Positions 16,646 through 44,364 of a stretch of 48,485 bases of DNA are shown piece by piece (the stretch's first letter is position 1; the number at the start of each line of letters is the position of its first letter). Below the pieces are notes generated by a model that was given only the letters and a program-made list of their open reading frames with translations, was not told the DNA's origin and did no database searches. This DNA comes from Pseudomonadota bacterium (GTDB taxonomy: Bacteria > Pseudomonadota > Gammaproteobacteria > Burkholderiales > Burkholderiaceae_D). Made by a program: the position numbers and the translations under genes. The stretch lies in the NCBI GenBank assembly GCA_030272785.1, contig JARXKM010000003.1:12410-60894 (forward strand), in the 5' to 3' direction.

Positions 16646-16669
16646 AACTTCTTTTACGATCGACTCGGC

Positions 16670-23141: not shown

Positions 23142-23258
23142 GGTGTGCTTTTTCGAAGGAATAATGCGTTGCGATGCAATTACTCTAGGAACAAAAACAA
23201 ACTTGGTCAACAAAAAGAAGGCAACAATCTCAAAACAGCGTAAAAATCTCGTCAAAAT

Positions 23259-25570: not shown

Positions 25571-25636
25571 CTTCCACCGACATCGCCGACAGCAGCACAA
25601 CTTAACGCCACCTTTATCGTCCATCGCGCGCAGACC

Positions 25637-26989: not shown

Positions 26990-27022
26990 GCTCGACATTT
27001 TTCGACCCTACAACCGATCATC

Positions 27023-27790: not shown

Positions 27791-27793
27791 AAC

Positions 27794-28891
27794 GTGCTAA
27801 GCGGCAGAATACTCACCCCCGGCGGCTGGATCACAGGCAGCATCGCTTTCGACCAGCGCATCCAGCAGATCGTGGAAGATTGCGCCGCCGATGAGGCGTT
27901 GACCATCCTGCCCGGCTTCATGGATCTGCACGTGCACGGCGCGGCGGGCGTCGACATCATGCAGGGCGGTAATGCCGGCGCCACTGTCGCGCGCGCGCAC
28001 GCACGCCACGGCACCACGTCGATGCTGGGCACCACCATGACCGCTACCGACAACTCGATCCGCCGCGCGTTGACCGGTCTGGCCGGCGTCATCGCGCAAC
28101 GCCCGGCAGGCGGCGCGCGCATGCTGGGCGTGCACCTGGAAGGGCCGTTCCTCAGCATACATCGATTGGGCGCGCAGCCGCCGGACGCGGTGGAGGTAGC
28201 CAGCCTGGAACTGGTGCGCAGCTATCACGCCATTGCGCCGATACGCGCGCTCACGCTGGCAACGGAAGTGGCCGGCCATCTGGCGTTGATCCCCCTGCTC
28301 AAAGAGATGGGCATCCGCGTGCAGCTCGGTCACAGCAACGGCAGCTACGAAGATGGCGTGGCCGCGCTGGAGGCCGGCGCCGCCGGCTTCACCCATCTGT
28401 TCAACGGCATGACCGGACTGCATCACCAATCACCCGGCATCGTCGGCGCAGCGCTGGCCCATGCCGAATATGCCGAGATCATCCCGGACCTGCAGCACGT
28501 CCATCGTGGCGCCATCCACGCCGCGCTGCGGGCCATCCCGCGTTTGTATGGCGTCACCGACGCCACCTCGGCCACCGGCATGCCCGATGGCGAATATGCA
28601 CTGGGCAGCCAGCGGGTCTACAAATGCCTGGGCTGCGTGCGGCTGGCCACCGGCTCACTGGCCGGCAGCGTGCTGACCATGGACCAGGCGTTGCGCAACT
28701 TCGTCGGCTTTGGCCTCGATCTGGCCGAGGCGTCGAACCGGTTGTCGCTGTTCCCGGCCGACTACCTGGCCGAGACAGAGCGCGGCCGGCTGGCGCCGGG
28801 CGCCTGGGCCGACATCGTCGTCTTAAACAAAGAATTACAACCGGCGGCCGTCTTCATCGAAGGCGAAGCCGTCCACCTTACCTCCACCTGA
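27794..28891 (+). CDS. agaA: N-acetylgalactosamine-6-phosphate deacetylase (NagA/AgaA family)
   Basis: Amidohydrolase of 365 residues removing acetate from GalNAc-6-P. Metal-site motifs: FMDLHVHGAAGVD (His46, His48), HLEGPFLS (Glu116), VQLGHSNGSYEDG, FTHLFNGMTGLHH and the catalytic Asp in VTDATSATGMPDG. The usual GAH after the EGPF motif reads GAQ (LGAQPP), a small difference from NagA. The start is GTG, three bases after the agaR stop, so translation is probably coupled. The aga setting favours GalNAc-6-P over GlcNAc-6-P as substrate, though such enzymes are often promiscuous. Confidence 0.9.
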   Translation: MLSGRILTPGGWITGSIAFDQRIQQIVEDCAADEALTILPGFMDLHVHGAAGVDIMQGGNAGATVARAHARHGTTSMLGTTMTATDNSIRRALTGLAGVIAQRPAGGARMLGVHLEGPFLSIHRLGAQPPDAVEVASLELVRSYHAIAPIRALTLATEVAGHLALIPLLKEMGIRVQLGHSNGSYEDGVAALEAGAAGFTHLFNGMTGLHHQSPGIVGAALAHAEYAEIIPDLQHVHRGAIHAALRAIPRLYGVTDATSATGMPDGEYALGSQRVYKCLGCVRLATGSLAGSVLTMDQALRNFVGFGLDLAEASNRLSLFPADYLAETERGRLAPGAWADIVVLNKELQPAAVFIEGEAVHLTST

Positions 28892-28907
28892 AGACACCGG
28901 AGTACCG

Positions 28908-30791
28908 ATGCAAGCGACCCTGTCAGCCGCACCCGTCCGCGCCATGCGCTTTTTGCTGTTCATCGCCGGCATGGGAGGACTGCTGTATGGGATCGACGTC
29001 GGCATCATCGCCGGTGCCCTGCCCTACCTGGAATCGACAGCGTCGGTAGCGTGGAAGCTCAGCGCACAGCAGCTCAGTTACATCGTGGCGGCGGTGTTGC
29101 TGGGGTCCGTACTGTCGTCGCTGTTCGCCGGCGCACTGGCCGACTGGATCGGACGGCGCTGGGCGATGGTGCTGTCCGGCGTGCTGTTCACGGCCAGCAT
29201 CCCGCTGATCGCGCTGGCCGATGGTTACACGCCGCTGCTGCTGGGCCGCCTGCTGCAAGGCATCAGCGGCGGCCTGATCGGCGTGGTAGTACCGCTATAT
29301 CTGGCCGAATGCCTGCATGCGCGCCAGCGCGGACGCGGTGCGGCGCTGTTCCAGCTGCTGCTGACGATAGGCTTGGTAGCCGCCGCGCTGATCGGATTGT
29401 TCCAGGCGCAATCGGTGGAAACCGCGACAGCAGCAACGAAAAGCCTGACCGAGACAGCGCGCGCCGCCGCCGTGTTCGCGGCCAAGGACCACGCCTGGCG
29501 CAGCATTTTCTGGATGTGTCTCGCACCGGGACTGATCTTCACCATCGGCAGCCTGCTGCTGGCCGAATCGCCGCGCTGGCTGGCGCGCCGTGGCCGCATC
29601 GAGGCGGCGCGCGCCGCCCTGCTGCGCACCCGTCCCGCCGCCGAAGCGGAAGCCGAGCTACGCGAGATTGAACAGGCGTTGTCGTTCACGTCCAGGCAAA
29701 ATCACGGCAATATCGGCAGTAGCAGTAGCAGCAACTCGGACCGTCCGGCCGGCTCTGGCACCAAGCTGGAGGTTCCCGCTGATCGACTGCTCAGCCGCCG
29801 CTACGTGCTGCCCTTCCTGCTGGCCTGCCTGATCCTGGCGCTGACGCAAGCGACCGGCATCAATTCCGTTCTTGCGTACATCGTCAACATCCTCAACCAG
29901 GCTGGCCTGCCTGGCGCTACAGCCAACACAGCCGACGTGGTGTTGAAAGTGCTGAACGCCGCCATGACGGTAGTGGCAGTGATACTGGTCGACCGCAAGG
30001 GCCGCAAGTTTCTGCTGATGCTGGGCAGCGGCGGCATTGTGCTGGCCATGCTGGCGGCAGGCCTGCTGTTCCGCAGCGTGGAAGGCGAGCAGCGCGACGT
30101 CAGCGCGCAGTTGCAGGCGCGCGTGCAGACGGACGGTCTGGAACTGCGTCTCGACACGGCCACTTTGCAATCGCTGGCTGCGCCGCCCGGCGACGCGCCG
30201 CAGCAGCTGTCGGTGGCCTATTCCTACGGCCCGTTCACCAATGTCCAGACCCGCCGCAGCGACGACGCCGCCCTGCCGCCCATGCGCCTGACGCGGGAAG
30301 ACACCGTGCAGACGGACAGCGTCATCGGCGTATTCTTCCGTCGCCTGCATCTGAATCCGTTCGCCGATCCGGCGCAAGCGCAAACCGCGCCGCTGCATAT
30401 CGAGCAGGCCCGGTTGGCGGCCGTACCGTCGTCCGCGCATGGCTGGCAGGTAGCGATGGCGATGTGCCTGTTCGTCGCCAGCTTCGCGGTGGGCCCGGGT
30501 GTATGCGTGTGGCTGGCATTGTCCGAGCTGATGCCAACGCGTATCCGTTCGAACGGCATGAGCATCGCCCTGCTGATCAACCAGTTCGTCTCTACCGTGA
30601 TCGCCGCCGTGTTCCTGCCGACCGTAGGCCAGTATGGCTATGCGACGCTGTTCTTCTACAGCGCCGGCTGCGCGCTGCTGTACTTCCTGACAGCGGCCTT
30701 CCTGCTGCCCGAAACCAAGGGCAAGACGCTGGAAGAAATCGAGGCCCGCTTCGTCGGCAAACCGGCCGTCCCGCTGTCGGCCCCGGTCTGA
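28908..30791 (+). CDS. agaP: MFS sugar porter with large periplasmic insertion (AgaP-like)
   Basis: Inner-membrane transporter of 627 residues. Sugar-porter signatures: LLYGIDVGIIAGALPYL (helix 1), DWIGRRWAMVLSG (loop 2-3), LLQGISGGLIGVVVPLYLAE (helix 4), LACLILALTQATGINSVLAY (helix 7) and LLPETKGKTLEEIE at the end. Two features are unusual: a Gly/Ser-rich central cytoplasmic loop (NIGSSSSSNSDRP, about 265-285), and a ~115-residue soluble insertion at about 390-505 between two transmembrane helices of the second half, which brings the length well above the usual 450-500. It closes the aga operon, 16 bases after the deacetylase, and should import free GalNAc. Confidence 0.88.
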   Translation: MQATLSAAPVRAMRFLLFIAGMGGLLYGIDVGIIAGALPYLESTASVAWKLSAQQLSYIVAAVLLGSVLSSLFAGALADWIGRRWAMVLSGVLFTASIPLIALADGYTPLLLGRLLQGISGGLIGVVVPLYLAECLHARQRGRGAALFQLLLTIGLVAAALIGLFQAQSVETATAATKSLTETARAAAVFAAKDHAWRSIFWMCLAPGLIFTIGSLLLAESPRWLARRGRIEAARAALLRTRPAAEAEAELREIEQALSFTSRQNHGNIGSSSSSNSDRPAGSGTKLEVPADRLLSRRYVLPFLLACLILALTQATGINSVLAYIVNILNQAGLPGATANTADVVLKVLNAAMTVVAVILVDRKGRKFLLMLGSGGIVLAMLAAGLLFRSVEGEQRDVSAQLQARVQTDGLELRLDTATLQSLAAPPGDAPQQLSVAYSYGPFTNVQTRRSDDAALPPMRLTREDTVQTDSVIGVFFRRLHLNPFADPAQAQTAPLHIEQARLAAVPSSAHGWQVAMAMCLFVASFAVGPGVCVWLALSELMPTRIRSNGMSIALLINQFVSTVIAAVFLPTVGQYGYATLFFYSAGCALLYFLTAAFLLPETKGKTLEEIEARFVGKPAVPLSAPV

Positions 30792-30983: not shown

Positions 30984-32321
30984 CTACGTACAGGCCAGGT
31001 TGGCCGCGGCCCGGGTGCGCGGGCCAAGGCGCACCTTCAGCAGCAGCAGCACCGAAACAAGTGCCGAAAACGCGCCGAACAATAGGGTAAGCTTGTAGTT
31101 GTGGCCCGAATAATCGAGCAGCGCGCCCTGTATCACGCTCACCAGCGCGGCGGCGCCCTGCGCCATCAGGAAGGCAGCCGAATTGAATTGCATGAAGCGC
31201 TCGCGCGGGAACAAGCGCATGGGCAGCGACGCGACGGCCGTGTAATAGCCGCCCGAGATCACCACATGGCACATGTAGGCGACACGAAAATGATGTTCGC
31301 CGCTGTCGACCAGCAGGTAGCCGAACAGCGAACTGGCGAAGTACAGCGCCAGCACAATCGTGGTCACCAGCAGTGCGCCGAAACGGTCCACCGCCACTCC
31401 GACGACGAAAGCCATCACCATCGAAATGGCGAACGACGCCGCCAGCATGGCGCCCAGTTCGGCCTTCGATATGCCCAGCACGCCCGCGTAGACCTGGCTG
31501 AAGGTCGTAAACGGCATCGGCGCGATCGAAGCGCACATCAGCGCCGCAAATATGCACAGGTAGTACGGCTGCGAAAAGCATTCGGTGACATAGCTGCGCG
31601 CACCGGCGACAAAGCCGGCCCGCGCGCCCGCGCTGTGCGGCTGCGGCCCGGGGTATGCGCCTTCCCGCACCTTCAGGCACATCAACGTGGTGCCGGCGCC
31701 GAACAGGATGCCGATGCCGACGAAAATTTCCATCAGGTGGTGTTCGGTCAACTGGAACAGCCAGGTGTTGAAAACGATGCCGGCTCCCAGGCTGACCACC
31801 CGCACGCCACTGTAGAAGCGCCCCTGCAGGGCGCGCGGCACCACATCGTTGACCAGGCCGACGTAGATCGACAGCGTCATGACGGCCATCGTTTCGAACA
31901 GCACCCAGCACAGCGCGAACAGGCCCAGCACGCAGGCGTCCAGGCCGGGCGAGGCGGCGCCCAGCAGCGCATCGAGATGCGCGCCCATCCAAGGCGAGCC
32001 GCCCAGGCCGACCATCAGCAGCGCGGTGATGGGGGTTTGCCACAGCAGGAAGGGGATACGGCGCCCGCGGCGGCTGCGGTAGCGGTCGGAACGGTAGCTG
32101 ACGATGGGCGCGATGAACAGGCTGATCACCGCCGGCAGCGCCGCGATCAGGATCGACATCAGCGTGTCCGAGGCATGGTACTGACGCAGCAACTCGGTGG
32201 CGCCGGGCACGGCTGAACGCTCGCGCATGGCGATCGCGAACTGGCCAAACAGCAGCCAGAAAACCAGCGTGCACAAGCCCCAGGAGGTGTAAGTCAGAGT
32301 GCCCGCCGAACGTGTTTCCAT
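30984..32321 (-). CDS. MFS transporter of the LacI-controlled glycan locus
   Basis: Inner-membrane protein of 445 residues with about twelve hydrophobic segments. It starts with YTSWGLCTLVFWLLFGQFAIAM, includes a basic loop YRSDRYRSRRGRRIPFLLW after helix 2-3, and ends in a basic tail. The loop and overall layout recall PucC-like and sucrose/glycoside (GPH-type) MFS carriers. As the last gene of the leftward cluster behind GH35 and DUF2264 genes it probably takes up the released mono- or disaccharides. An in-frame start 19 codons upstream exists; the ATG at 32321 opens directly into the first helix. It is separated from the DUF2264 gene by 91 bases. Confidence 0.82.
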   Translation of the reverse strand: METRSAGTLTYTSWGLCTLVFWLLFGQFAIAMRERSAVPGATELLRQYHASDTLMSILIAALPAVISLFIAPIVSYRSDRYRSRRGRRIPFLLWQTPITALLMVGLGGSPWMGAHLDALLGAASPGLDACVLGLFALCWVLFETMAVMTLSIYVGLVNDVVPRALQGRFYSGVRVVSLGAGIVFNTWLFQLTEHHLMEIFVGIGILFGAGTTLMCLKVREGAYPGPQPHSAGARAGFVAGARSYVTECFSQPYYLCIFAALMCASIAPMPFTTFSQVYAGVLGISKAELGAMLAASFAISMVMAFVVGVAVDRFGALLVTTIVLALYFASSLFGYLLVDSGEHHFRVAYMCHVVISGGYYTAVASLPMRLFPRERFMQFNSAAFLMAQGAAALVSVIQGALLDYSGHNYKLTLLFGAFSALVSVLLLLKVRLGPRTRAAANLACT

Positions 32322-32412
32322 CGCGTCTCGCTGTGTTTTTCTGCGCTCGATTGTGCCGTCAAGCGCGGCAATGAGCAAGCGTTTGCGGCGCGCGCCGGAC
32401 CGGCACGGCGAA

Positions 32413-33672
32413 CTAGTACGTCACGGGATAGTCTTTCGGGAAGCGGGCGCCGGCGAACGCCTTTTTCTGCGTCCAGTCCAGCGCCGGCGCCGTCCAGTAC
32501 GTATCGGTCGCGGGCAGGCCGAGCGCGAGGAAGCTGGCGGACGCGATGTACATGCTGCCGTTGTTCGAATACCAGTCGCCCAGCTCGGGCTGGTGGCCGG
32601 CGAAGCCGATCGTCAGGAAGCCGTCCTCGGTAAAATTGCTCGGCGCGCTCCACAGCGCCTTGTGCACCGCGTGCAGCGCGGCGCGGACCTGGCCCGGCGG
32701 AAGGCTGGCCGGCAGTTGCTTGCGCCAGGCCAGCAGCGCCAGCGGCTGGAAGGCGGCGCTGCGGTAAGTCAGCGAGCGGCCGATGGGCGGAAACGTCCCC
32801 TGCGGCGAAATGAAGCGTTCGAGGTGTTCGGCATAGCGCTGCATGCGTTTCAATGCCTGGGCGAGCAGCTCGACCGGCTTGGCGTTCCAGAACGGCCCGT
32901 TCTGCTTTTCCAGCACCTCGAGTATCTCGACGAGCATCGGGAACATGACGAAGGAGTTGTAATAGTCGAAGTGAAACGACTCGCCGTCCTTGATCCAGCC
33001 ATCGCCCACATACCATTCGTTGACCTTGCGGATCGCCACGTTCATGCGCATCGGGTCGTGCTGCTCGCCGATCGACAGCAGCCAGGCTTCGTTCATCGCG
33101 GCGAACAGCAGCCAGTTGATGTACGGCGGGTCAATCCGGCGCAGGTTCTTGACCTGCTGGACGATGCGCTGCTTGGTGGTGGCGTCGAGCGGCTCCCACA
33201 GCGCATGCGGCGCGCGCATCAGCGCATTGGTAAAGTAGGCCGAATCGACCAGCACCTGGCCGTGGCCCTGCCACAGCAGGCAATCCGGGCTTGCCGGATC
33301 GACGGAGTTGGCATAGCTTTGCAGCGCCATTTGTTGAAGGCGCCGGCGGGTGCGGCCTTCGGCGCTGCCGTCGTCGGGCAGGCCGAGCCAGGGCGCCATG
33401 CCGGCGATCAGGCGCGCGAAGCATTCCATGTAGGCGACCCGCTGGTCGCGTCCGTCCCAGGTCGGACTGAGCTCGAGCGTGAACTTCTTTTGCAGCGCGC
33501 CGCTGGCCATGTTCGACAGCACCGGTTCGGCCATCTTCTGCAGCAGGCCGGCCATGTACGCGCGTTCGCCGCCGCCCGCCGGCGTCGCGTCGGCGGCCGC
33601 CAGCGCGCCCAGGCTCGCGCCCATCGCAGCCGATCCCGCCAGCGCCGTGCGCATGAAATTACGTCGTTCCAT
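32413..33672 (-). CDS. DUF2264-family protein (GH154-like, candidate beta-glucuronidase)
   Basis: Exported protein of 419 residues with a Tat-like or Sec signal (ERRNFMRTALAGSAAMGASLG, cleavage near LAA). The mature protein is an (alpha/alpha) barrel type sequence with DUF2264 landmarks: RVAYMECFARLIAGMAPWL, INWLLFAAMNEAWLL, DGESFHFDYYNSFVMFPML, ISPQGTFPPIGRSLTYRS and WYSNNGSMYIAS. CAZy family GH154, which includes an exo-beta-glucuronidase from a Bacteroides arabinogalactan locus, is built from DUF2264 proteins; assignment to that activity here is inference. GGAG precedes the ATG. The gene starts 18 bases after the GH35 gene, in the same operon. Confidence 0.83.
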   Translation of the reverse strand: MERRNFMRTALAGSAAMGASLGALAAADATPAGGGERAYMAGLLQKMAEPVLSNMASGALQKKFTLELSPTWDGRDQRVAYMECFARLIAGMAPWLGLPDDGSAEGRTRRRLQQMALQSYANSVDPASPDCLLWQGHGQVLVDSAYFTNALMRAPHALWEPLDATTKQRIVQQVKNLRRIDPPYINWLLFAAMNEAWLLSIGEQHDPMRMNVAIRKVNEWYVGDGWIKDGESFHFDYYNSFVMFPMLVEILEVLEKQNGPFWNAKPVELLAQALKRMQRYAEHLERFISPQGTFPPIGRSLTYRSAAFQPLALLAWRKQLPASLPPGQVRAALHAVHKALWSAPSNFTEDGFLTIGFAGHQPELGDWYSNNGSMYIASASFLALGLPATDTYWTAPALDWTQKKAFAGARFPKDYPVTY

Positions 33673-33690
33673 ACTTGTCTCCGATATTTG

Positions 33691-36054
33691 TCAGTCGCCG
33701 CTCGCCAGGGCGTTCGCCACATACACGCGGTACTGCCTGATGCGCCCGGTCACCCCGTCCGCCCCCTGGCGCGGCGTGTAGCGCAGGCCTGCCACTTCCA
33801 CCGTCCTGCCAAGGTCGATGATGATGCGGTGCGGGTGTCCGGCGGGCCCCGCCGCTCCGCTGTAGGCGGTGTGCCAATGGTCGCTGGCCTGGCCGTTGAT
33901 CGCGTTCAGGGCCGAGCCGTCTTCCTTGGCCAGTTCTTCGCTGCTGGCATAGGCGACGGTCCAGGCGGACTGGTTGAGCGTCTTGCCGCGCCGGTCGAGC
34001 AGTGCGATCTCGGCGACGGCGGTGAACGGCTTGCCGTCGAAGCTGTCGAGCGACTCCAGGCAGAACTGGCGTCCGCTGGCGGGCATGGAAAAGACGATGT
34101 CCTGGGTCGCCGCGCCGGGCGCGAACTGGCCCTCGTGCACAGGGTTGACGCCGTCGAGCTGCGCCCTGGCAGTGCTGGGCGGACGCGCCAGGTCCTTTTC
34201 GGGATGCAGCTGATCGAGGATCGGTTCGGCCAGGCCGGCGATGCGCGCCGTGTTCTGTCCGGGTCCGGTCAGGTCCAGCACCACCACCTCGTTGCGGCCG
34301 CGCCGCATCCACGGGCCCGGCAGGTACATGGTCTGGGTCGGCCCGATGCTCCAGAAGCGTCCCAGGCAGCGGCCGTTGACCCAGACGATGCCCTGCCCCC
34401 AGTTCGACATGTCGAGGAAGGTGTCGCCGGTGCTGCCAACCTCGAAACTGCCGCGCCAGAAAGCCGGACCGGGCGCGCGCCCGGCCTTCCAGGCCAGCGC
34501 CGGCAAGCGCGCGTCGGCGTCGAAATCGATGGCGCGGATTTCCCACTGCTGCAGCGCCGCCGGCACGCCGTCGTGCGCCTTGAAGGTGACCGGGCCGTGC
34601 AAGCCCTTGCGGTCGTGGATCTCGACGCCGAAGTTGACCCGCGCGATCGTGTAGAGCAGGATGTCAAGCGTGGCCGGTTGGGCGCGCGCCGGGATTTCGA
34701 CGCGGAAGCGGCGGTGGCGCGTATCCATCGTGCCGGCCGGCTTGCCGTCGACATAGACCCAGGCCAGGTCGCGCACCTTGGCCGCCTCCAGCACGCCGGC
34801 CGGGCCGGCCGGCAGGGTGACCCGGTAGGCGACCAGGCCGCGGCTGATGTCGTACTGTTCGATCGGCCGCGGCGCGACGTCCTTGATGACGCGCCCGGGC
34901 AGGTTGGCCATCACCGCCGCGCTTTCCTTGAGCGCGAACGGCGCGATCGAGATGACCGGATTGCGCGGCGGCGCCGGCGGCAGCACTTCGCCCGGCGCCA
35001 AAAACGGTTTGATGCCGTCGCGGTAGGCGGCGAACTTGTCGCCCATCGTGCCCGCTTCGCCGATCGGCGCGTCGTAGTCGTAGCTGCTGGTATCGGGCCG
35101 GAACGGACGGTCGCAACCGCCCCATAAACCGAAGGTGGTGCCGCCGTGCGCCATGTACAGGCTGAACGAGCCGCCGGCCTTGAGCATGGCCGCGATGTCG
35201 GCTACCGCCTTGGTGGCCGCCCCGGTCTTGTGCGGCGTGCCCCAGGTGTCGAACCAGCCGGAATAGTATTCGCCGCACATCGGCGGCCCGCTCTGGACCG
35301 CGGCCAGGGCGGCGAAGCCGGCCGCCGGATCGCTGCCGAAATTGGCGACCGAGAACAGCTCCGGGAGGTGCGACTTGGCGACCGCATTGGTCGGGTTGCA
35401 CTGGAATAGCGGGACGTCGAAATGGGCGTCGAGCAGGGCTTGGCGCATCACCCGCATGTATTCGAGGTCGTCGCCGAAAAAGCCGTATTCGTTCTCGACC
35501 TGCACCATCAATATCGGGCCGCCGCGGGTCGACTGCATCGGCCCGAGCACTCGCCCGACTTCCTTCAGCCAGCGCCGCGCCGGCTGCACGAAGGCGGCGT
35601 CGCGGGTACGCAGGAAGCTGTCGCCTTCATGCTTGAGCAGCCACCACGGCAGCCCGCCCATTTCCCATTCGGCGCAGGCGTACGGACCGGGCCGCAGGAT
35701 CACCCACAGTCCCTCCTGCTGCGCCAGGCGGCAGAACTCGGCGGCGTCGCGCTGGCCGCTCCAGTCGTAATGTCCTTCGCGCCATTCGTGATAATTCCAG
35801 AACAGGTAGGCGCACACGGTGTTCAGGCCCATCGCCTTGATCGCCTTCAGGCGGTGCAGCCAGTATTCGCGCGGCACGCGGGCAAAGTGGATTTCGCCGC
35901 AGCGTATCTGCAGGCGTTTACCGTCGAGCATGAAGTCGGTCGCGCCGATCGAGAAACGCGGCGCCGCGCCGGCACCGGCCAAGGGGAACAAGCCGGCGCC
36001 GACGATCGCGGCGGCGCTCTGGATAAGCCGGCGGCGAGGAAGATAGGTGGTCAT
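33691..36054 (-). CDS. GH35 beta-galactosidase with C-terminal F5/8-type module
   Basis: Exported enzyme of 787 residues releasing terminal beta-galactose. After a signal with basic residues (PRRRLIQSAAAIVGAGLF) come the GH35 motifs: FSIGATDFMLDGKRLQIRCG, LRPGPYACAEWEMGGLPWWL, the acid/base Glu189 in MVQVENEYGFFGDD, and the nucleophile Glu262 in CGEYYSGWFDTWG. Galactose-binding jelly-roll domains follow (about 440-620). The last ~140 residues form a discoidin-like carbohydrate-binding module (VEVAGLRYTPR near its end). The frame extends 36 codons upstream of the chosen ATG, but the signal peptide begins here; the ribosome site is weak. It fits the removal of galactose from galactan side chains after the uronic-acid caps are cleaved. 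Confidence 0.92.
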   Translation of the reverse strand: MTTYLPRRRLIQSAAAIVGAGLFPLAGAGAAPRFSIGATDFMLDGKRLQIRCGEIHFARVPREYWLHRLKAIKAMGLNTVCAYLFWNYHEWREGHYDWSGQRDAAEFCRLAQQEGLWVILRPGPYACAEWEMGGLPWWLLKHEGDSFLRTRDAAFVQPARRWLKEVGRVLGPMQSTRGGPILMVQVENEYGFFGDDLEYMRVMRQALLDAHFDVPLFQCNPTNAVAKSHLPELFSVANFGSDPAAGFAALAAVQSGPPMCGEYYSGWFDTWGTPHKTGAATKAVADIAAMLKAGGSFSLYMAHGGTTFGLWGGCDRPFRPDTSSYDYDAPIGEAGTMGDKFAAYRDGIKPFLAPGEVLPPAPPRNPVISIAPFALKESAAVMANLPGRVIKDVAPRPIEQYDISRGLVAYRVTLPAGPAGVLEAAKVRDLAWVYVDGKPAGTMDTRHRRFRVEIPARAQPATLDILLYTIARVNFGVEIHDRKGLHGPVTFKAHDGVPAALQQWEIRAIDFDADARLPALAWKAGRAPGPAFWRGSFEVGSTGDTFLDMSNWGQGIVWVNGRCLGRFWSIGPTQTMYLPGPWMRRGRNEVVVLDLTGPGQNTARIAGLAEPILDQLHPEKDLARPPSTARAQLDGVNPVHEGQFAPGAATQDIVFSMPASGRQFCLESLDSFDGKPFTAVAEIALLDRRGKTLNQSAWTVAYASSEELAKEDGSALNAINGQASDHWHTAYSGAAGPAGHPHRIIIDLGRTVEVAGLRYTPRQGADGVTGRIRQYRVYVANALASGD

Positions 36055-36219
36055 AGGATAGGTGAAAGTAAGCAGCGGAAAGTCAGCAGCGAAAACGGCC
36101 AGCATGGCAGGCTCCGCCGGCAAAAGCCAGCACGGGGAGGCGCCAGGCGCCTGGTATGTCAACTTGATATAACTTCGCGCCGAATCGGGATAGCGCGGGC
36201 CGTTCCGGGCACGGCGGCG

Positions 36220-37413
36220 TCATCGCCGCGCCTCGGCTGCCAGGTAACGGTGCAGTTCGGCGCCGGCGAGCAGGAAGGCGCCGACCCCGAACGATGCGGT
36301 CGATTCCTGATCGACGACCTGGCCGGCGATCGCGCGCTCGCCGATCGGCTGCACGTAACCGAGCTTGCCGTCCGGTTGCAGCGCGACCCGGCTCAGGTAG
36401 GACCAGCTTTTGCGCACCACCGGCGCGTAGTCGGCCTTGTCGAGGTAGCCATGATTCATGCCCCACAGGTAGCCGTAGGTGAAGAACGCGGTGCCGCTCG
36501 TTTCGCGGCCGGGCGCCTGCTGCGGGTCGAGCAGGCTGCGCGTCCAGTAGCCTTCGTCCTGCTGCGCCGGTTTCAGGGCCCGCGCCATGGCCTGGAAGCG
36601 CTGCACGAACAAGCGGTGGCTGGGGTGCGACGGCGGCAGGTCCGCCAGCACCTTGGCCAGGGCGGCGAACACCCAGCCGTCGCCGCGCGCCCAGAAGTCC
36701 TTGCCGCCGTTGCTGCTGCGGTGCGCCGGGTAGACGTACTTGGCGTCGCGGTAGTACAGGCCGGCGGCGTGGTCGAACATGAGCGTGTCGGCGAACAGGA
36801 AGTAGTCGTGCAGCTTGTCCAGATAGCGCGCATCGCCGGTCACCTTGTACAGCTTCGTCATCACCGGCATGACCATGTACAGGCCGTCGGCCCACCACCA
36901 GTAATCGTTGCCGGCGGTGCCGATCTGGTAGCCGATCACTTCCAGCGCGCGGGCGATTTTGCGCCGCTCCTTGTGCGGGTCGAGGTTGTACAGGTCGATA
37001 TAGGTCTGAAAGCAGACCTGCCAGTCGCCGAACAGCACATGGTCGGCGGTTTCGCCGTAGCCGTACTTCCATTGCGCCTTGACGTCCGAGCGCGCCGAGC
37101 TCCACTGGTTGTATTCGGCCCAGGTGGTCGAATACCGCAGCCAGGCGTCGTTGCCGGTCAGGAGGTACGCTTCCATGTTGCCGGTATGGTAGGCGGCCAC
37201 GTCCCAGAACGACCATTGCTGCGGCGCCGTGCGGGCCTGCCAATAGTCGTTCGCCAGCGTCATGGCCGCCAGCACCGCCGCGCCGGTGACGCCGATGGTC
37301 GCGCCGCCTTGCGCCGGCATGCCGCTGCAGCCGGCCGCCAGGCTGGCCGCGCCGGCGAGGGCAGCCTTGAGGTACAGTCGTCGTGTCATCCGTCTTGTCA
37401 TCTGTCGTGTCAT
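36220..37413 (-). CDS. GH105 unsaturated glucuronyl/galacturonyl hydrolase (YteR-like)
   Basis: Lipoprotein of 397 residues (lipobox AAGC, Cys29) with an (alpha/alpha)6 barrel. It carries the GH88/GH105 landmarks YWWWADGLYMVMPVM, with the predicted catalytic Asp176, and DFWARGDGWVFAAL. These enzymes hydrate and remove 4,5-unsaturated uronic acids left by polysaccharide lyases, so a lyase must act first; the BNR_4 protein encoded six bases upstream is the obvious candidate. The first twelve residues come from three in-frame 12-bp repeats, each with its own ATG (37413, 37401, 37389), so the exact start is uncertain. Confidence 0.9.
   Translation of the reverse strand: MTRQMTRRMTRRLYLKAALAGAASLAAGCSGMPAQGGATIGVTGAAVLAAMTLANDYWQARTAPQQWSFWDVAAYHTGNMEAYLLTGNDAWLRYSTTWAEYNQWSSARSDVKAQWKYGYGETADHVLFGDWQVCFQTYIDLYNLDPHKERRKIARALEVIGYQIGTAGNDYWWWADGLYMVMPVMTKLYKVTGDARYLDKLHDYFLFADTLMFDHAAGLYYRDAKYVYPAHRSSNGGKDFWARGDGWVFAALAKVLADLPPSHPSHRLFVQRFQAMARALKPAQQDEGYWTRSLLDPQQAPGRETSGTAFFTYGYLWGMNHGYLDKADYAPVVRKSWSYLSRVALQPDGKLGYVQPIGERAIAGQVVDQESTASFGVGAFLLAGAELHRYLAAEARR
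37378..37413 (-). repeat. Three tandem 12-bp units at the GH105 start
   Basis: Units close to ATGACACGACAG are repeated three times, giving the peptide MTRQMTRRMTRR before the signal. Unit length is a multiple of three, so copy-number change would only add or remove four residues. Confidence 0.75.
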
Positions 37414-37419
37414 CTTCTG

Positions 37420-38778
37420 TCAGTCTTTCCGTAGTGGCGCCGCGCGCCGCGGCTTCCATTGCAGCACCCGCACCATCGACGGCGCGCCGTCGGCGCTGCC
37501 TTCGGCGTCGGCTTGGCGCACGTCCTGCACGAACAAATCGAGCTCGCCGTCACGGCGCCACAGTTCGGTGTCGAAGCTCGGTTCCCAGGCGCCGACCGAG
37601 GCTTGGCCGAGGTCGCGCACCGCCCAGCGCCCGGCATCGAAGTCGGCGATCGTCACCACCGACACCTTGCTGCCGCGCTCCTGGTCGCGAAACACCAGCA
37701 AGCCGGCCGGCCGCCCGGCGCCCGCACCGGGCAGAGGATCGATCAGGATTTGCGGGCGAGCGATCGGGATCGCCTTGGTGCCCTGCCCGCTCAACGAAAA
37801 CGGCGTGCTGCGAAAGTCGAGGGCCAGGCGCTGCCAGGCGCCACCGCGCTGGTACAGCACCTGGTACTGCGGCACCAGCGAACCGGCCTGGCGCCAATAG
37901 CTGGCGATGTAGGGGTTGCCCTGACTGTCGGCCGCCATCGAGGTCTGGTTGATCAGTTCACTGTTTTGCGCGATGCGGGCGGCGTATTCGGCGCTCGCGG
38001 CGGTGATCGGCAGCCGGTACGGCTGGCCGTTCGAGCGTTCCCACGTGCGCCCGCCGTCGCGCGAGCGGGCATAGGCCATGTCGTGGTTGCTGGCGACATC
38101 GGGCGATTCGCGCCACACCCACGACAGGTGCACGGTGCCGTGGCGGTCGACGACGCTTTGCCAGTAGGCGTTGCGCTGCCCTTCCCCGCTGACCAGATCA
38201 CTGTGCAAACGGGTCCATGCGCCGCTGGCGACGTCGTAGCGGTTGATCACCAGGTCGCCCCGTCCGGAAGCGCCATTGCGGTAGCAGAACAGCAGGTCGC
38301 CATCCGGCAGCCGATGAAATTCGGGATAGCTGACCGCCGTTTCGTCGGCGCCGGTCATCGGCATCGGCGCGCCCAATGCGAGCGCACCGGGGGCGAGCGC
38401 GCGCACGTAGCGCAAGGCGCCGTTGTGGTGGTCCCACGCCATGTGCAGGAAGCCGGCGCCGTCGACCATGATGCTGATGCTGTTGTGGGCGTCGGCGGCA
38501 TTGCCGCTGTACGGCATGAGTTGCAATTGCCAGCTGCCGGTGCCCAGTGCGCGCTTGCCCAGCACCACGCGGCGTTGCTGGTCGTAAAACGCGATGTACT
38601 GGGTGTCGCCGTGGGTGACCAGCGAATTCTTGCGAAATGCGACCGCATTGACGGAATTGTTGGCCCAGCCTTCGGCCACGTCGACGGTGCTGAGCAGTTC
38701 GGACGCGCAGCCGGCGACGAGCGCGCATAGCGGCAGCGGCCAGATCAGGCATAGGAAGGTTCGGGTAAGTCGAGGCAT
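37420..38778 (-). CDS. BNR_4-family seven-bladed propeller protein, candidate uronate lyase or rhamnosidase (PL24/25/27 or GH145 type)
   Basis: Lipoprotein of 452 residues (LVAGC, Cys24). The opening VNAVAFRKNSLVTHGDTQYI and the strong block AHNSISIMVDGAGFLHMAWD followed by HHNGALRYVRA match the BNR_4 Pfam pattern; His112, His117 and His118 lie in the region that forms the active site in related enzymes. Further blades contain SRDGGRTWERSNG and NPYIASYWRQAG. BNR_4 proteins include ulvan lyases (PL24, PL25) and the Rha-GlcA-specific PL27 lyases and GH145 rhamnosidases active on arabinogalactan protein. With GH105, GH35 and DUF2264 neighbours the arabinogalactan reading is favoured. No clear ribosome site precedes the ATG. 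Confidence 0.78.
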   Translation of the reverse strand: MPRLTRTFLCLIWPLPLCALVAGCASELLSTVDVAEGWANNSVNAVAFRKNSLVTHGDTQYIAFYDQQRRVVLGKRALGTGSWQLQLMPYSGNAADAHNSISIMVDGAGFLHMAWDHHNGALRYVRALAPGALALGAPMPMTGADETAVSYPEFHRLPDGDLLFCYRNGASGRGDLVINRYDVASGAWTRLHSDLVSGEGQRNAYWQSVVDRHGTVHLSWVWRESPDVASNHDMAYARSRDGGRTWERSNGQPYRLPITAASAEYAARIAQNSELINQTSMAADSQGNPYIASYWRQAGSLVPQYQVLYQRGGAWQRLALDFRSTPFSLSGQGTKAIPIARPQILIDPLPGAGAGRPAGLLVFRDQERGSKVSVVTIADFDAGRWAVRDLGQASVGAWEPSFDTELWRRDGELDLFVQDVRQADAEGSADGAPSMVRVLQWKPRRAAPLRKD

Positions 38779-38849
38779 CGTGTGGTTCTGGTCGTTTCTG
38801 GTTGTCCGTTCCGGTGGCGCAGCAAAAACGTTGCGCCACCGGTGGCGAT

Positions 38850-41702
38850 CTACAACTTGCCGCGTATGCCGACCTTGACGGTACGGCCGTCGTACTTCGC
38901 ATAGTCCATGCGGGTCTTCTTGCCGCTGCCGTACTGGCCGGTAGCGTCTTCGAAGTAGTCGTAGGCCAGCGTGTTCGACAGGTTCAGCACATCGAAGCGC
39001 AGTTCGAGCTTGTCGCTGATCTTGTAGCTGAGATTGGCGTCCATGTAGCCGCGTCCGGCGCGCCAGCGGATCAGGTCGTCGCCGAGGTTCTTCGGGTTGT
39101 CGCTATGCAGCGATTTGCCCTTGTAGTTATACGACAGGCGTACCGCCAGCGGACCGTTTTCGTAATAGGCGGTGGTACTGTAGGCATACTTGGGCACCGA
39201 GTTGACCTCGATTTCCTTGCCCGCATTGGTGATCCACTTGGCGCTGTTGAAAGGATCGATGTGGGTGTAGCTGGCCAGCGCGCCCAGGCCCTTGAACGGC
39301 GCCGGCAGGAAGGTGAAGGCTTGCTGGTAAGACAGCTCGTAGCCTTTGAGCGTCTGCTGGCCGGCGTTGGTATAGCTGCGCAACACCATCGGCAGGTTCG
39401 GGTCGACCTTGCCTTGGGCGTCCTGGAAGATGGCGCCGAGCGCCGTGCTGGGCAGGCCGAGCGCGCCGAAGGTGGTGTTGCTCACGTTGGCGACGGTGGC
39501 GTCGGTCAGATCCTTCTGAAACAGCGCGCCCGAGAGCACGCTGCCCGGCTTGAAATACCATTCGAGGCTGGTGTCGAGATTGGTCGACTTCTGCGGACGC
39601 AGGCTCGGGTTGCCCGCCGTGGCGCTGTTGTCGAACGGGTTCGGGATGACGGTCTGGGCGGCGATGATCGACAGCGAGGCGCGGCTGATCGTCTTGCCCC
39701 ACGAAGCGCGCCACATCAGGTTCTCGGTCAGGTCGAAGGCCGCGCTGACGGCCGGCAGCACGTTGCTGTACGCGCCTTGCTGCTGGTTCGGCAAGTAAGT
39801 ACCGCCGGCGCCGGTTTTCTTGAAGTTGTCGATCCCGGTATCGGTGCTCGAGTAGCGCAGGCCGGCGTTGATGCGCAGCTCGTGCTCCATGAGCTTGCCC
39901 TGGAAATCGGACTGGACGTAGACGGTCGACACCTTTTCCTGGGCCGTGAAGCTCTGCGCCGGGGTAAAGGTCGCTGCCGAGTTGTAGGCGAGCGGATCGA
40001 AGGTCGCATAGGTGTAGGCGCGCGAGAACGTCGACCAGGCCTGCGGCCAGCCGGCGCCAATGTCGAGGTTGCTGATCGGCAGGGTCGGGTTGAGATTGCC
40101 GCGCAGCCCGGCGAGGCCGACCGCGTTCAGCTTGGCGGCGGCGTCGGCCGTGCCGTTGCGCTTGTCGACGCCCTTGGTGGTCTCGACGTAGCTGACGCCA
40201 GCCTTCAGGTGGCCGGTCCATTCGGCCGGCAGGTCGTAGTCCCAGTCGGCCACCAGGCGCGCCTGCTTGCCCTTGTCGGTTTCGCGCGTCAGGCCGGTAC
40301 TGATGCCAAAACCCGAATAGCTGTTCGGATCGGTGTAGCTGATCGGCGAGGACAGCGACGGATAGACGTGGTCGGAGCCGTAGCCGATGGTGGAATTGAC
40401 ACCGAATATCTGGCCACTGAGGGTGTCCTGGTAGCTGAGCGCTTCGCTCTTGTTGAGACTGGCCTGGCCGCTCAGCACCAGGCGCTTGCCCGCTTGCCAG
40501 CGTCCGTTCAGGGCGGTATAGCCGAATTCGGTTTCATCGTTGCTGTAAGTCTGGCCGTTGCTGTAGCTGGCGTTGCCGAAGGTACCGGTGAGCAGGTTGC
40601 TAGACGGATCGATGTGCACGTCGATCGGCACCAGCCCGTTGTTGCCGGTGGTGCCGGCCGGCGCGGTGCGATTGGTGGTCTTGCTGTTGCGGATCAACAA
40701 GCCGAACACGACTTCATCGCGCTGGTTCTTCAGCTTCGAATACATGGTGTCGACGCTCAGGTTCAGGTCGCCGCTCTTGAACTGCAGCGAGGACACCAGG
40801 CCGTCGCGCGTGCGTTCGTTGTGCGAGCCGTAAAAGCGGTAGATGCGCGGCAACAAGGCATTGTCGACCTGGTCGCGCGTGTAGGCGCCCAGGTTGCTGC
40901 GCGGATCGTTGTAGTCGAGCGCCAGCGCAAAGTTGCCCATCACCGGGTTCTGGCTACCGTGGAAGGAGCTGTTGTAGCCGCCGGTCGCTTCGAAGCCGGA
41001 ACGGTTGTTCACGCCGCCCGAATGCGAGCCGCCCACCAGCAAGCCCCAGTTGCCCCAGGTGTTCGAATACAGCGCGAAACCCATCGGGTCGTTGTGCTTG
41101 GACATCGTGTTGTAGGCGTCCGTGACGGCATAGCGGAACGTGCGCTTGGGATTGTCGAACGGACGCGGGGTCTGCAGGTCGACCACGCCGCCCAGGCCGC
41201 CTTCGCTCAGTTCGGCCAGCGGCGACTTGTAGAAGTCGACCCTGCCGAACAGTTCCGAGGCGAACACATCGTAGTTGAAGCCGCGCGCGGCGCTGCCGAT
41301 GGTGGCCGTGGAGGTGGTATTGACGGGCGCGCCGTTCAAGGTGGTGACCGAATACTCGGTCGGCAAGCCGCGGATCGAAATGCGCTGGCCTTCGCCGGAC
41401 GACTCGTCGCGGTTGAGGATCACGCCGGGCACCCGCTGCAAGGATTCGGCGATGTTCGCTTCCGGGAACTTGCCGATGTCTTCGGCGACGATCGAGTCGC
41501 GCACGCCGATGGCCTGCATCTTCAGGTTCAGCGCCTTTTGCAAGCTGGAGCGGAAACCGGTGATGACCACCGTGTCCGGCGGCGCGGCGGCGTCGTTGGG
41601 CGCCTCGGCTGCCGCGCCCGGCAATGCCTGGGCCAGTGCCTGAGTGCCGTAGAGCGCCGCCAGGGCGAGCGGCACAAGGGTGGCCAATATGGTCTTCTTC
41701 AC
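38850..41702 (-). CDS. TonB-dependent receptor (Caulobacter type) of the glycan locus
   Basis: Outer-membrane receptor of 950 residues. A signal peptide ends near QALAQ. The TonB box-like stretch DTVVITGFRSSLQKAL is followed by the plug (about 60-190), with DIGKFPEANIAESLQRVPGV in the style of the Caulobacter receptor family, then a beta-barrel ending TVKVGIRGKL. The terminal residue is Leu rather than Phe. The start codon is GTG, with GGAG six bases upstream. It is the first gene of the leftward locus and faces the lacI-family gene across a 340-base control region with two matching palindromes. It should import the oligosaccharides on which the BNR_4, GH105, DUF2264 and GH35 enzymes act. Confidence 0.93.
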   Translation of the reverse strand: MKKTILATLVPLALAALYGTQALAQALPGAAAEAPNDAAAPPDTVVITGFRSSLQKALNLKMQAIGVRDSIVAEDIGKFPEANIAESLQRVPGVILNRDESSGEGQRISIRGLPTEYSVTTLNGAPVNTTSTATIGSAARGFNYDVFASELFGRVDFYKSPLAELSEGGLGGVVDLQTPRPFDNPKRTFRYAVTDAYNTMSKHNDPMGFALYSNTWGNWGLLVGGSHSGGVNNRSGFEATGGYNSSFHGSQNPVMGNFALALDYNDPRSNLGAYTRDQVDNALLPRIYRFYGSHNERTRDGLVSSLQFKSGDLNLSVDTMYSKLKNQRDEVVFGLLIRNSKTTNRTAPAGTTGNNGLVPIDVHIDPSSNLLTGTFGNASYSNGQTYSNDETEFGYTALNGRWQAGKRLVLSGQASLNKSEALSYQDTLSGQIFGVNSTIGYGSDHVYPSLSSPISYTDPNSYSGFGISTGLTRETDKGKQARLVADWDYDLPAEWTGHLKAGVSYVETTKGVDKRNGTADAAAKLNAVGLAGLRGNLNPTLPISNLDIGAGWPQAWSTFSRAYTYATFDPLAYNSAATFTPAQSFTAQEKVSTVYVQSDFQGKLMEHELRINAGLRYSSTDTGIDNFKKTGAGGTYLPNQQQGAYSNVLPAVSAAFDLTENLMWRASWGKTISRASLSIIAAQTVIPNPFDNSATAGNPSLRPQKSTNLDTSLEWYFKPGSVLSGALFQKDLTDATVANVSNTTFGALGLPSTALGAIFQDAQGKVDPNLPMVLRSYTNAGQQTLKGYELSYQQAFTFLPAPFKGLGALASYTHIDPFNSAKWITNAGKEIEVNSVPKYAYSTTAYYENGPLAVRLSYNYKGKSLHSDNPKNLGDDLIRWRAGRGYMDANLSYKISDKLELRFDVLNLSNTLAYDYFEDATGQYGSGKKTRMDYAKYDGRTVKVGIRGKL

Positions 41703-41781: not shown

Positions 41782-41799
41782 CATGGTTACGTTACCATG
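41782..41799. promoter_or_regulatory. LacI-family operator, site 1
   Basis: CATGGTTACGTTACCATG, symmetric at 16 of 18 positions around a central CG, the usual form of LacI-family operators. It lies 80 bases upstream of the receptor GTG, placing it over that gene's likely promoter. Confidence 0.75.
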
Positions 41800-41900: not shown

Positions 41901-41918
41901 TGTGGTAACGTGACCACA
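41901..41918. promoter_or_regulatory. LacI-family operator, site 2
   Basis: TGTGGTAACGTGACCACA, symmetric at 16 of 18 positions and sharing GGTWACGTKACC with site 1. The centres are 119 bases apart, a spacing that would allow DNA looping by a tetramer or separate control of the divergent genes. It lies about 125 bases before the regulator start, suggesting autoregulation. Confidence 0.75.
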
Positions 41919-42042: not shown

Positions 42043-43062
42043 ATGCGCAAAGCGAGCACACTGAGCGAAGTGGCAAAACTGGCGGGCGTGTCGCCCATTA
42101 CGGCGTCGCGCGCGATCCGCGGCGCCGGCTATGTGTCGCAGGCGGCGCGCACGCGCATCATGGCAGCGGCGGCCCAGCTCAATTACACGCCCGACCCGGT
42201 GGCGCGGCGGATGCGCGGCGAGAAAAGCAAACTGATCGGCGTGTTCGTCAACAACTACGGCTCGCTGGTGCTGCACGAACTGATCAAGGCCATCAGCGAG
42301 GAAGCGCGGCGGCTGGGCTTCGACCTGATCGTCTTTAACGCCGAGCGCTTCGACCGGCCCGGGCGCATGGAAACGAGCGACATGCTCAGCAAACTGTGCG
42401 ACGGCCTGCTGCTGCTGTTGCCCAATCAGAGCGACGGCTACCTGGACGTGATCGAGCGGCAGGGTTTTCCCTGCGTGCTGGTCAATTTCGATGCGCGCGA
42501 GATGAACTTGCCGGTCGTCGTGGCCGAGAACCGGATCGGCGCGCGCACCGCGGTCGAGCACCTGCTGGGGCTGGGGCACCGGCGCATCGGTTTTGTCGCC
42601 GGCACCGCCGGCACCGGACAGAGCGCCGAGCGGCAGCAAGGATACGCCGACGCCTTGCGGGCGGCCGGCCTGGCGCCGGATCCGGCGCTGATCGTCGAAG
42701 GCGCCTTCACGCAGGCCGGCGGCTACGCGGCAACCGAGCGCTTGCTGGCATTGGCCGAACGCCCCAGCGCCATCTTCTGCGCCAACGATGAAATGGCGTT
42801 TGGCGCCATCGATGCGATCAGCAGCAAGGGCCTGAGCGTGCCGGCCGATATCTCGGTGACGGGTTTCGACAACATCGCCACCGCGCGCTTCGTCTACCCT
42901 ACCCTGACCACGGTCGGCCAGCCCTTCGTGCAGATGGCCGCGCGGGCGGTCAGCGAAGTGGTCGCCATCATCGAGGGCGGCGCCGCCAAGCCGGGGAAAA
43001 TCGCCTTTCCCACCGAATTCATCATCCGCAATTCGACCGGACCGGCGCCGCGCCCGTCCTGA
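42043..43062 (+). CDS. LacI-family transcriptional regulator
   Basis: Regulator of 339 residues. The N-terminal helix-turn-helix reads TLSEVAKLAGVSPITASRAI, followed by the hinge helix region DPVARRMRGEKSKLIGVFVN. The periplasmic-binding-protein-like effector domain spans about 65-330, with HLLGLGHRRIGFVAG and AIFCANDEMAFGAIDAI. The frame extends 17 codons upstream, but the domain starts at the ATG at 42043, preceded by a GGGGAA ribosome-site-like stretch. It is divergent from the TonB receptor and probably represses the glycan locus until a breakdown product binds. The last 367 bases of the gene region recur at 45662-46026. Confidence 0.93.
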   Translation: MRKASTLSEVAKLAGVSPITASRAIRGAGYVSQAARTRIMAAAAQLNYTPDPVARRMRGEKSKLIGVFVNNYGSLVLHELIKAISEEARRLGFDLIVFNAERFDRPGRMETSDMLSKLCDGLLLLLPNQSDGYLDVIERQGFPCVLVNFDAREMNLPVVVAENRIGARTAVEHLLGLGHRRIGFVAGTAGTGQSAERQQGYADALRAAGLAPDPALIVEGAFTQAGGYAATERLLALAERPSAIFCANDEMAFGAIDAISSKGLSVPADISVTGFDNIATARFVYPTLTTVGQPFVQMAARAVSEVVAIIEGGAAKPGKIAFPTEFIIRNSTGPAPRPS

Positions 43063-43527: not shown

Positions 43528-44271
43528 TTAGGTTCCAAGACTACGATCCCGGGCAATCTTCATCTCGTCGTATCGGAATTGTCCTTGCGGATCGTTGCTT
43601 TGATAGACTACGTTCTGATCCACTCCCGAAGAACCATCCAGCCCTTGGACTGCCATAATACGCTCTAGTCGACCGACTCTCGAATCGACACTCCGAATCA
43701 GCGGCTGAAAGTACCCGTCGAGCAACCCTTTATCTGGATCCCAAAGCTCTTCAGTGAGTGCTTGTAAATACGAATCTTTCCTAGACGACGCCCAGTCAAT
43801 TGCAATGCCAGCCCGATCACAAAGCTCCGTATGAATAAGCAGCATGGTTCGGCCGTTACCGTCGAGAAACGGATGCCCCCAGGCAAATGCTCCCATGATA
43901 GTGCCAGGCTTCCTCCGCATTAGATTCTTGTCCACACCCATTTTAAGTCCCCACTCCACGGCTAAGCGGGATCTATCGGCTTGCTCGAATTCGACTATTC
44001 CATCGCCCTTGCCGACATGTTTTCCTATACCTAACATGTCTCGATCAACTCCAGCCCAAGGATAAAATTGGTCGAACAGAATCTTGTGCACATCAAGAAA
44101 AGACTGATAGGTAATGTGAGGAGAATTCTCCGGTGCCAGGTGGTCAAGAGCGGACTCGAGATTTGCTACGAAGAAGAGGTGCTCTTGTACCTTTACCTCG
44201 TCTAAGTCCTTCAATTTCTCGATGTTTCTGAGATAGCCCATTGTTCCAAAATCGCCGAATGGATCAAACAT
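43528..44271 (-). CDS. Fic-domain protein (candidate toxin/AMP-transferase)
   Basis: Protein of 247 residues whose Fic core spans about 35-175. The motif reads HPFLDGNGRTML from His133, giving the catalytic His, the phosphate-binding GNGR and the flap region upstream (FYPWAGVDRDMLGIG). The final Arg of the canonical HPFx(D/E)GNGRxxR is Leu144, which may weaken or alter nucleotide use. Fic enzymes usually transfer AMP to target proteins. The C-terminal part contains VGRLERIMAVQGLDGSSGVD, not recognised. The frame extends 28 codons upstream, but the domain and an AGGGA stretch support the ATG at 44271. Base composition is lower in GC than the flanks. It follows the AbiEi-like gene by 93 bases on the same strand. 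Confidence 0.87.
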   Translation of the reverse strand: MFDPFGDFGTMGYLRNIEKLKDLDEVKVQEHLFFVANLESALDHLAPENSPHITYQSFLDVHKILFDQFYPWAGVDRDMLGIGKHVGKGDGIVEFEQADRSRLAVEWGLKMGVDKNLMRRKPGTIMGAFAWGHPFLDGNGRTMLLIHTELCDRAGIAIDWASSRKDSYLQALTEELWDPDKGLLDGYFQPLIRSVDSRVGRLERIMAVQGLDGSSGVDQNVVYQSNDPQGQFRYDEMKIARDRSLGT

Positions 44272-44364
44272 CGTCTTCCCTATTTTTGTTCTAGTTATTT
44301 CGAGCTTCGAAACGCGGGGATACAAACGTTGACCAGAACGAACTGGCCGGCACATCGGCGCTAT

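Follow-up and report, generated by a model that had tools for sequence, protein, structure and literature searches.

Bacteroides loci for arabinogalactan proteins (AGPs) contain GH35 and the GH154 protein BT3677, among other enzymes. The nearest likeness to the locus described here is their use of GH145 and GH105 on rhamnose-glucuronic acid (Rha-GlcA) caps, as in the locus of BT3686 (GH145) and in PUL5 of Bacteroides plebeius, which holds both families (PMC8406133). The present locus lies in a window of 48,485 nucleotides from a Pseudomonadota bacterium (Burkholderiales, Burkholderiaceae_D; assembly GCA_030272785.1, contig JARXKM010000003.1, positions 12,410 to 60,894 of the forward strand). 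Here, a six-gene minus-strand cluster fills positions 30984-41702 and encodes a TonB-dependent receptor, a GH145/PL42 protein, a GH105 protein, a GH35 protein, a DUF2264 protein and a major facilitator superfamily (MFS) transporter. This cluster is probably a TonB-dependent operon under LacI control that serves the use of beta-galactan oligosaccharides capped with Rha-alpha-1,4-GlcA, the likeliest source being side-chain ends of plant AGPs.

Compared with the Bacteroides AGP loci, the window locus displays several distinctions. No SusD or galactanase was found in it, it has one receptor of the TonB-Xanth-Caul type, its LacI regulator comes with paired operator-like sites, and several of its enzymes carry signal motifs of the twin-arginine translocation type. 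Pfam scans of 31 window frames gave no match to the SusD family, and the SusC/SusD pair that marks a Bacteroidota polysaccharide utilization locus is replaced by a receptor matching TIGR01782. The chondroitin locus of B. caccae, with the dehydratase BcGDH and a GH88 enzyme, offers a second likeness, since there too a beta-D-glucuronate dehydratase adjoins an unsaturated uronyl hydrolase; that locus, however, concerns chondroitin, N-acetylgalactosamine (GalNAc) and PL35, whereas the window has GH145 and GH35 for Rha-GlcA-galactose. A third is FoRham1 (PL42) of Fusarium oxysporum, a Rha-alpha-1,4-GlcA lyase with an anterior site whose structure 7esk scores 125 bits against the window GH145. FoRham1 is fungal and has Tyr at the posterior position, where the window protein has His. 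A search of the literature, judged by titles and abstract openings and with subscription journals and preprints mostly outside its coverage, found no description of this gene set in Burkholderiales. Rha-GlcA stripping has so far been known mainly from gut Bacteroides, and the Burkholderiales version, from a soil-type bacterium, appears to be new, with a dehydratase seemingly replacing the presumed glucuronidase. The first-pass annotation had named the six genes, and profile matches at coincident coordinates bear this out; its picture of a compact, proteobacterial locus without SusD for Rha-GlcA-capped galactan also stands, with changes to the family of one protein, the role of another and the part of the polymer attacked.

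The BNR_4 beta-propeller protein (37420-38778, minus strand) belongs to GH145, which CAZy is to rename PL42 (PMC8377490). It matches PF15892 with 310 bits and the NCBIfam BT3686 model NF052497 with 602 bits over residues 29-440, the whole propeller. Among structures in the PDB, four GH145 chains score 472-504 bits, led at 504 bits by 5muk, which is BT3686 (PMC8406133). FoRham1 follows at 122-125 bits, ulvan lyases match at E 6e-6 or weaker and at most 28 bits, and none of the 12 PDB matches is labeled PL27, though no PL27 sequence was compared directly. These scores settle an initial choice between PL27/GH145 and PL24/25 in favor of GH145/PL42, and PL27, PL24 and PL25 were set aside. The accompanying suggestion that such a protein would normally be annotated as hypothetical is probably wrong, as an NCBIfam model exists, although the score lies below its cut-off. 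Given that sub-cut-off score, no equivalence to BT3686 is claimed.

Mechanistic work on Bacteroides GH145 describes two active sites: posterior His48 hydrolyzes, and anterior His90, Tyr143 and Arg333 form a lyase site whose product is then cut by GH105 (PMC8406133). The window protein retains both, with H98/Y151/R341 corresponding to the BT3686 triad H90/Y143/R333, and H56, encoded by CAC, corresponding to H48. It is thus predicted to be a Rha-alpha-1,4-GlcA lyase with a possible second, hydrolytic site. Named genomes yielded 277 GH145 relatives, of which the best 80 were kept with one match per locus: 46 from Pseudomonadota, all Burkholderiales, and 34 from Bacteroidota. None of the 80 departs from the anterior triad. 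Position 48 (BT3686 numbering) is His in 28, comprising 22 of the 46 Pseudomonadota and 6 of the 34 Bacteroidota, and otherwise Asp (14), Gln (11), Phe (11), Tyr (8), Asn (4), Trp (2), Glu (1) or Ser (1). Of thirty Burkholderiaceae-type GH145 sequences fetched later, 18 repeated earlier ones; the other 12 have the complete triad without exception, and five of them have His48.

Lyase activity is the safer prediction for the window protein, with hydrolysis possible, because the triad is invariant in the relatives and His48 occurs in only 28 of 80 and changes fast. A quick tree of 85 rows (the 80 relatives, the window and four solved chains), built from matched segments rather than whole proteins, places the 47 Pseudomonadota rows, window included, on one side of a branch with SH-aLRT support of 100. 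On this tree position 48 requires 29 changes, or 18 if scored as His versus any other residue; this exceeds the number of changes in 83% of the 406 columns, for which the median is 11, whereas the triad columns, among 76 columns without change, never do. These figures bear on a rival reading in which GH145 acts mainly as a hydrolase through its posterior His, leaving saturated GlcA and making the dehydratase an obligate second step in the source organism. That reading draws on the His codon in the window gene, on the same state in nearly half of the Pseudomonadota relatives, and on the report that inactive Bacteroides members regained activity once His replaced Gln or Asp at position 48 (PMC8377490). 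It is rather doubtful, however, given the mobility of position 48 beside an unchanging triad. Moreover, no column conserved across the Pseudomonadota rows with His48 tracks that residue strongly (next best p 0.036, uncorrected), and an expected pairing of His48 with DUF2264, as hydrolase with dehydratase, was dropped when a tree-aware test found no association. A posterior histidine has been suggested to be rare outside human-gut bacteria (PMC8406133), which does not fit its presence in 22 of 46 Burkholderiales proteins; that presence could reflect drift as well as function.

The DUF2264 protein (32413-33672, minus strand; PF10022, 375 bits) supplies the second distinctive activity. BcGDH, classed as GH154, is reported to lack detectable hydrolase activity and to dehydrate terminal beta-GlcA to the 4,5-unsaturated product (Δ4,5-GlcA) for GH88; BT3677, the founding GH154 member, likewise dehydrates a methyl glucuronide, and in 2025 the whole family, often co-located with GH88 or GH105, was proposed to consist of beta-D-glucuronate dehydratases (PMC12269599). 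The window protein scores 501 bits against 8oi4 (BD-beta-Gal), to which it is 57% identical, and 385 and 382 bits against the BcGDH structures 9o4u and 9nwf, at 46% identity. Nine of the ten BcGDH residues mutated in the published study (PMC12269599) are kept in the window: E74, R78, N177, W178, F181, Y229, R285, Y289 and Y354. At the tenth, N176, the window protein has Ile and 8oi4 has Thr. All nine recur in 40 of 40 DUF2264 copies from the relatives that passed a filter of more than 280 query residues covered and more than 150 bits, copies below it being left out.

The protein is more likely a beta-D-glucuronate dehydratase feeding GH105 than a glucuronidase. The family label of the first-pass annotation, DUF2264 of GH154 type, is upheld, and the glucuronidase role implied by it gives way to dehydration on the strength of the retained BcGDH residues (PMC12269599). 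The alternative is a true hydrolase, either a beta-glucuronidase or an exo-beta-1,6-galactosidase, in which case GlcA would leave as such and GH105 would serve only lyase products. BT3677 was first reported as a beta-glucuronidase, BD-beta-Gal/8oi4 was reported as an exo-beta-1,6-galactosidase and deposited as a beta-galactosidase, and the window protein is nearer to 8oi4 than to BcGDH. Even so, Y229, R285 and Y289, to which catalytic roles in dehydration are assigned, are kept in the window protein, in 8oi4 and in all filtered relatives. In addition, the BT3677 dehydratase activity was measured directly, the structures in the same study have no hydrolase-type catalytic arrangement, and the galactosidase signal of that study's own protein varied between preparations and vanished on further purification, although 8oi4 seems not to be among the proteins assayed (PMC12269599). 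A hydrolytic role is therefore improbable.

The remaining two enzymes closely resemble solved structures. GH105 (36220-37413, minus strand), an unsaturated uronyl hydrolase by family, is supported by PF07470 (267 bits) and by its best structure match, 5noa (523 bits), with which it shares the identical stretch WWWADGLYMVMPVMTKLY. GH35 (33691-36054, minus strand), a beta-galactosidase by family with a C-terminal F5/8 type C domain, matches PF01301 (336 bits) and aligns to 6eon with 645 bits over residues 65-815 of its long open reading frame (ORF), covering catalytic and C-terminal domains. This frame opens with TTG at 36162, and the likelier start is the ATG at 36054, which precedes a twin-arginine stretch. 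Both 5noa and 6eon presumably come from Bacteroides AGP loci. The GH35 motifs QVENEYG (the same in 3d3a; QVENAYG in 6eon) and GEYYSGWFD are intact, and we take them to carry the catalytic Glu residues. Signals read by eye are lipobox-like on GH145, twin-arginine plus lipobox-like on GH105, and twin-arginine on GH35 and DUF2264. Simple patterns find the twin-arginine motif in 22/22 DUF2264, 16/20 GH35 and 8/25 GH105 proteins of Pseudomonadota relatives, and the lipobox-like motif in 20/45 GH145 (one more is cut off) and 17/25 GH105 proteins.

Transport and regulation complete the operon. The receptor (38850-41702, minus strand) scores 590 bits against TIGR01782 (cut-off 310), has Plug and barrel Pfam domains, and is a predicted outer-membrane importer of oligosaccharide. 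The MFS protein (30984-32378, minus strand; PF07690, 72 bits; possible start ATG near 32321) is predicted to take up released sugar or uronate across the inner membrane. A LacI-family gene (42043-43062, plus strand; PF00356 and PF13377), whose ORF opens at 41992 and whose MRKAST start is at 42043, lies upstream of the receptor gene and points away from it. Between the two genes stand an operator-like palindrome TGGTTACGTTACCA at 41784-41797 and a second, TGGTAACGTGACCA, at 41903-41916, 119 bp from the first. The first-pass annotation lists neither the regulator nor these palindromes. LacI orthologues, 64-73% identical, are divergent from the receptor or GH105 gene in 19 relatives, and the stretch separating regulator from target gene repeatedly contains the LacI-type palindrome TGGTNACGNNACCA. 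Of the 20 LacI-divergent regions (window plus 19 relatives), 17 contain one or more sites that differ from the pattern by no more than one base, and 15 contain two; in 11 of these 15 the sites lie 113-119 bp apart. Two regions counted as having one site (L022, L023) hold a second, perfect one just beyond the stretch used. In 300 single-base shuffles the palindrome turned up in 0.08 regions on average and never in more than one, a test that is not blind since the pattern was derived from the regions tested.

Genome-wide, the perfect palindrome occurs only at the two locus sites and once more, on contig C269, in a source draft genome of 5.4 Mb in 520 contigs (82.8% complete, 3.9% contaminated), which suggests a LacI regulator largely dedicated to the GH145 locus. 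A search for further operon members through the operator was abandoned: matches with at most one mismatch numbered 22 and 26 by strand, perfect ones included, fewer than the 59 and 47 of a reversed-pattern control, so that the extra ones are at chance level. One contig of the same assembly, C465 (L106), is a likely contaminant, because its rpoB fragment is only 57-61% identical to 21 Burkholderiales proteins, two of which, used as queries, share at least 70% with the rest. This fragment, the only one of rpoB, gave no taxonomic placement, and a 16S gene was not found either.

Comparison with relatives shows that the gene arrangement is not chance, since 19 of 22 receptor-linked loci hold GH105 and DUF2264 and the other three lie near sequence ends. 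Receptor orthologues (tblastn, at least 300 bits), 73-81% identical over the best segment, adjoin GH145 in 22 of the 80 relatives; 19 of these loci also carry GH105 and DUF2264, and in the remaining three GH145 lies 123, 1,559 and 3,201 bases from one end of the stored sequence. In seven loci, from Massilia (L010, L033, L042, L044), Pseudoduganella (L018), Herbaspirillum (L047) and Oxalobacteraceae (L040), MFS and LacI genes are divergent from receptor-GH145-GH105-GH35-DUF2264. Five Roseateles loci (L004, L005, L006, L008, L034) hold the set rearranged: MFS and LacI diverge there from a GH105-DUF2264 pair, after which come the receptor, GH145 and GH35 genes. The relatives' MFS gene, 43-54% identical, sits beside the LacI gene, while that of the window is placed last in the operon, farthest from LacI. 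Of the 37 Pseudomonadota loci whose flanks extend 9 kb or more each way, 21 contain DUF2264 together with GH105 and 16 contain neither; GH35 is present in 15 of those 21. The GH145 model matches 51 of 392 same-family genomes: 48, among them the source genome, score above 570 bits, two score about 198 bits, and one match is marginal. The four other genomes of the source genus give no match. In one same-family genome (G043) the receptor-GH145-GH105 stretch reaches up to 87% DNA identity to Massilia, a match that, together with the protein tree, points to Burkholderiales for the source organism.

A second type of GH145 locus exists in Duganella. Of 21 Pseudomonadota loci that lack both GH105 and DUF2264, 12, all Duganella, have an enolase-superfamily protein, and nine of these (L016, L021, L025, L026, L027, L031, L032, L035, L036) also have a GH42-like protein that includes DUF5597. 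Eight of the nine have Gln at position 48. Elsewhere, locus L002 contains, at 13163-13351, a 63-residue match (56% identity) to the C-terminal part of GH145 about 2 kb past the full gene; as only these C-terminal residues match, a second GH145 gene was dropped from consideration, and the match is possibly a remnant or part of another protein.

From the observed genes, families, residues, conservation and operator-like sites, we infer the substrate, the order and location of the steps, the inducer and all activities. The TonB receptor would import the capped oligosaccharide into the periplasm, where GH145/PL42 would cleave off the rhamnose cap, chiefly through beta-elimination in its anterior site to give Δ4,5-GlcA; its posterior His may add hydrolysis to plain GlcA. 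The DUF2264 dehydratase would then convert plain terminal GlcA, whether uncapped in the plant or derived from hydrolysis, to Δ4,5-GlcA, so that GH105 could clear the product of both routes. GH35 would next cut the exposed beta-galactose, the MFS transporter would move a product inward, and LacI would be released from its two operators by a pathway-derived inducer.

The locus probably handles oligosaccharides or chain ends, because no endo-galactanase was found in it. The earlier proposal that caps and then galactose are stripped from arabinogalactan accordingly applies, in all likelihood, to such pieces. The source genome also encodes a galactokinase (galK/galT lie within the L007 locus), and its five GH88/105 matches, one of them the window's, and eight GH43 matches, seven over the cut-off, give a plant cell-wall context.

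Several results weigh against AGP use as proposed here. The locus contains no detected endo- or exo-beta-1,3-galactanase, and the one GH16 match of the source genome, like its GH43 proteins, was not placed as a galactanase. The window protein falls short of the NF052497 equivalog cut-off (700 bits, alpha-L-rhamnosidase BT3686), as do all 392 Burkholderiaceae-type genomes. The Pseudomonadota pairing of DUF2264 and GH105 rests on about three tree changes, too few for significance in a sign test, and the two genes are loosely paired in 28 Bacteroidota loci (both in 8, neither in 8, DUF2264 only in 7, GH105 only in 5). Pattern scans found no excess of promoters or terminators over shuffles (3 and 7 matches against 1.9 and 9.1), and the literature searched yielded no measured activity for a Burkholderiales member. 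KduI acts in the usual route from Δ4,5-GlcA. The source draft genome, 83% complete, gives no KduI match, nor do 12 of 20 GH145-bearing relatives, so the model lacks a step for using the uronate set free; 5-keto-4-deoxyuronate may follow another route in these genomes.

Some other Rha-GlcA glycan might be the substrate instead of AGP: ulvan, a bacterial or algal exopolysaccharide, or pectin arabinogalactan. The anterior triad is common to GH145 and an ulvan lyase (PMC8406133), the window protein has weak ulvan-lyase matches, and one of the four other GH88/105 genes in the source genome adjoins a frame that by eye resembles a polygalacturonase. Ulvan is less likely, however, because Pfam scans matched no sulfatase in the locus, and the window protein sits far closer to the GH145 chains than to ulvan lyases by the bit scores given above. 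The close match of GH35 to 6eon and its presence in most full-flank Pseudomonadota loci with DUF2264 also speak against these substrates, which together remain unlikely beside plant AGP side-chain ends.

The surrounding window holds other features. An adjoining alpha-GalNAc cluster (15217-30791) includes a receptor, DUF3472-DUF5077 and a GH31 protein (19812-23402) with NPCBM and F5/8C domains, which scores 382 bits against 6m76, whose near-identical entries are named GH31 alpha-N-acetylgalactosaminidase; its plus strand encodes AgaS-like, ROK kinase, GatZ/KbaZ, DeoR, NagA-like and sugar porter proteins. Six proteins of this cluster are unmatched in the loci of the 80 relatives, and it was set aside as a part of the GH145 locus. 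Beyond the regulator, 43528-45060 encodes a Fic-domain protein (weak VbhT match) and an unassigned 231-residue ORF at about 47-51% GC against 64% for the window, both missed by codon-usage gene calling. A DDE-type transposase (DDE_Tnp_1, DUF772) lies at 8414-9445.

Taken jointly, the activities suggest a broader reading, tentative and a little short of an even chance: in this lineage a glucuronidase would never remove terminal arabinogalactan GlcA. Instead, the two-sited GH145/PL42 acting on Rha-capped ends and the dehydratase acting on bare ones would both yield Δ4,5-GlcA for a single GH105, an arrangement that would extend to Bacteroides AGP loci, with the posterior site as an old trait repeatedly lost. 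AGPs occur at root surfaces (PMC8165308), Duganella is reported as an abundant colonizer of barley roots (PMC12401772), and the relatives include strains named Root418 and Root1237. A small, conserved and regulated operon of this kind could offer culturable hosts for the study of AGP use outside Bacteroidota. The locus bears on whether the former GH154 family dehydrates on AGP and on which GH145 site works in nature. If the joint reading is true, it would carry over to the Bacteroides AGP loci and their supposed glucuronidase BT3677, and the posterior rhamnosidase site would be an old, repeatedly lost trait of environmental bacteria rather than a recent response to human diet.

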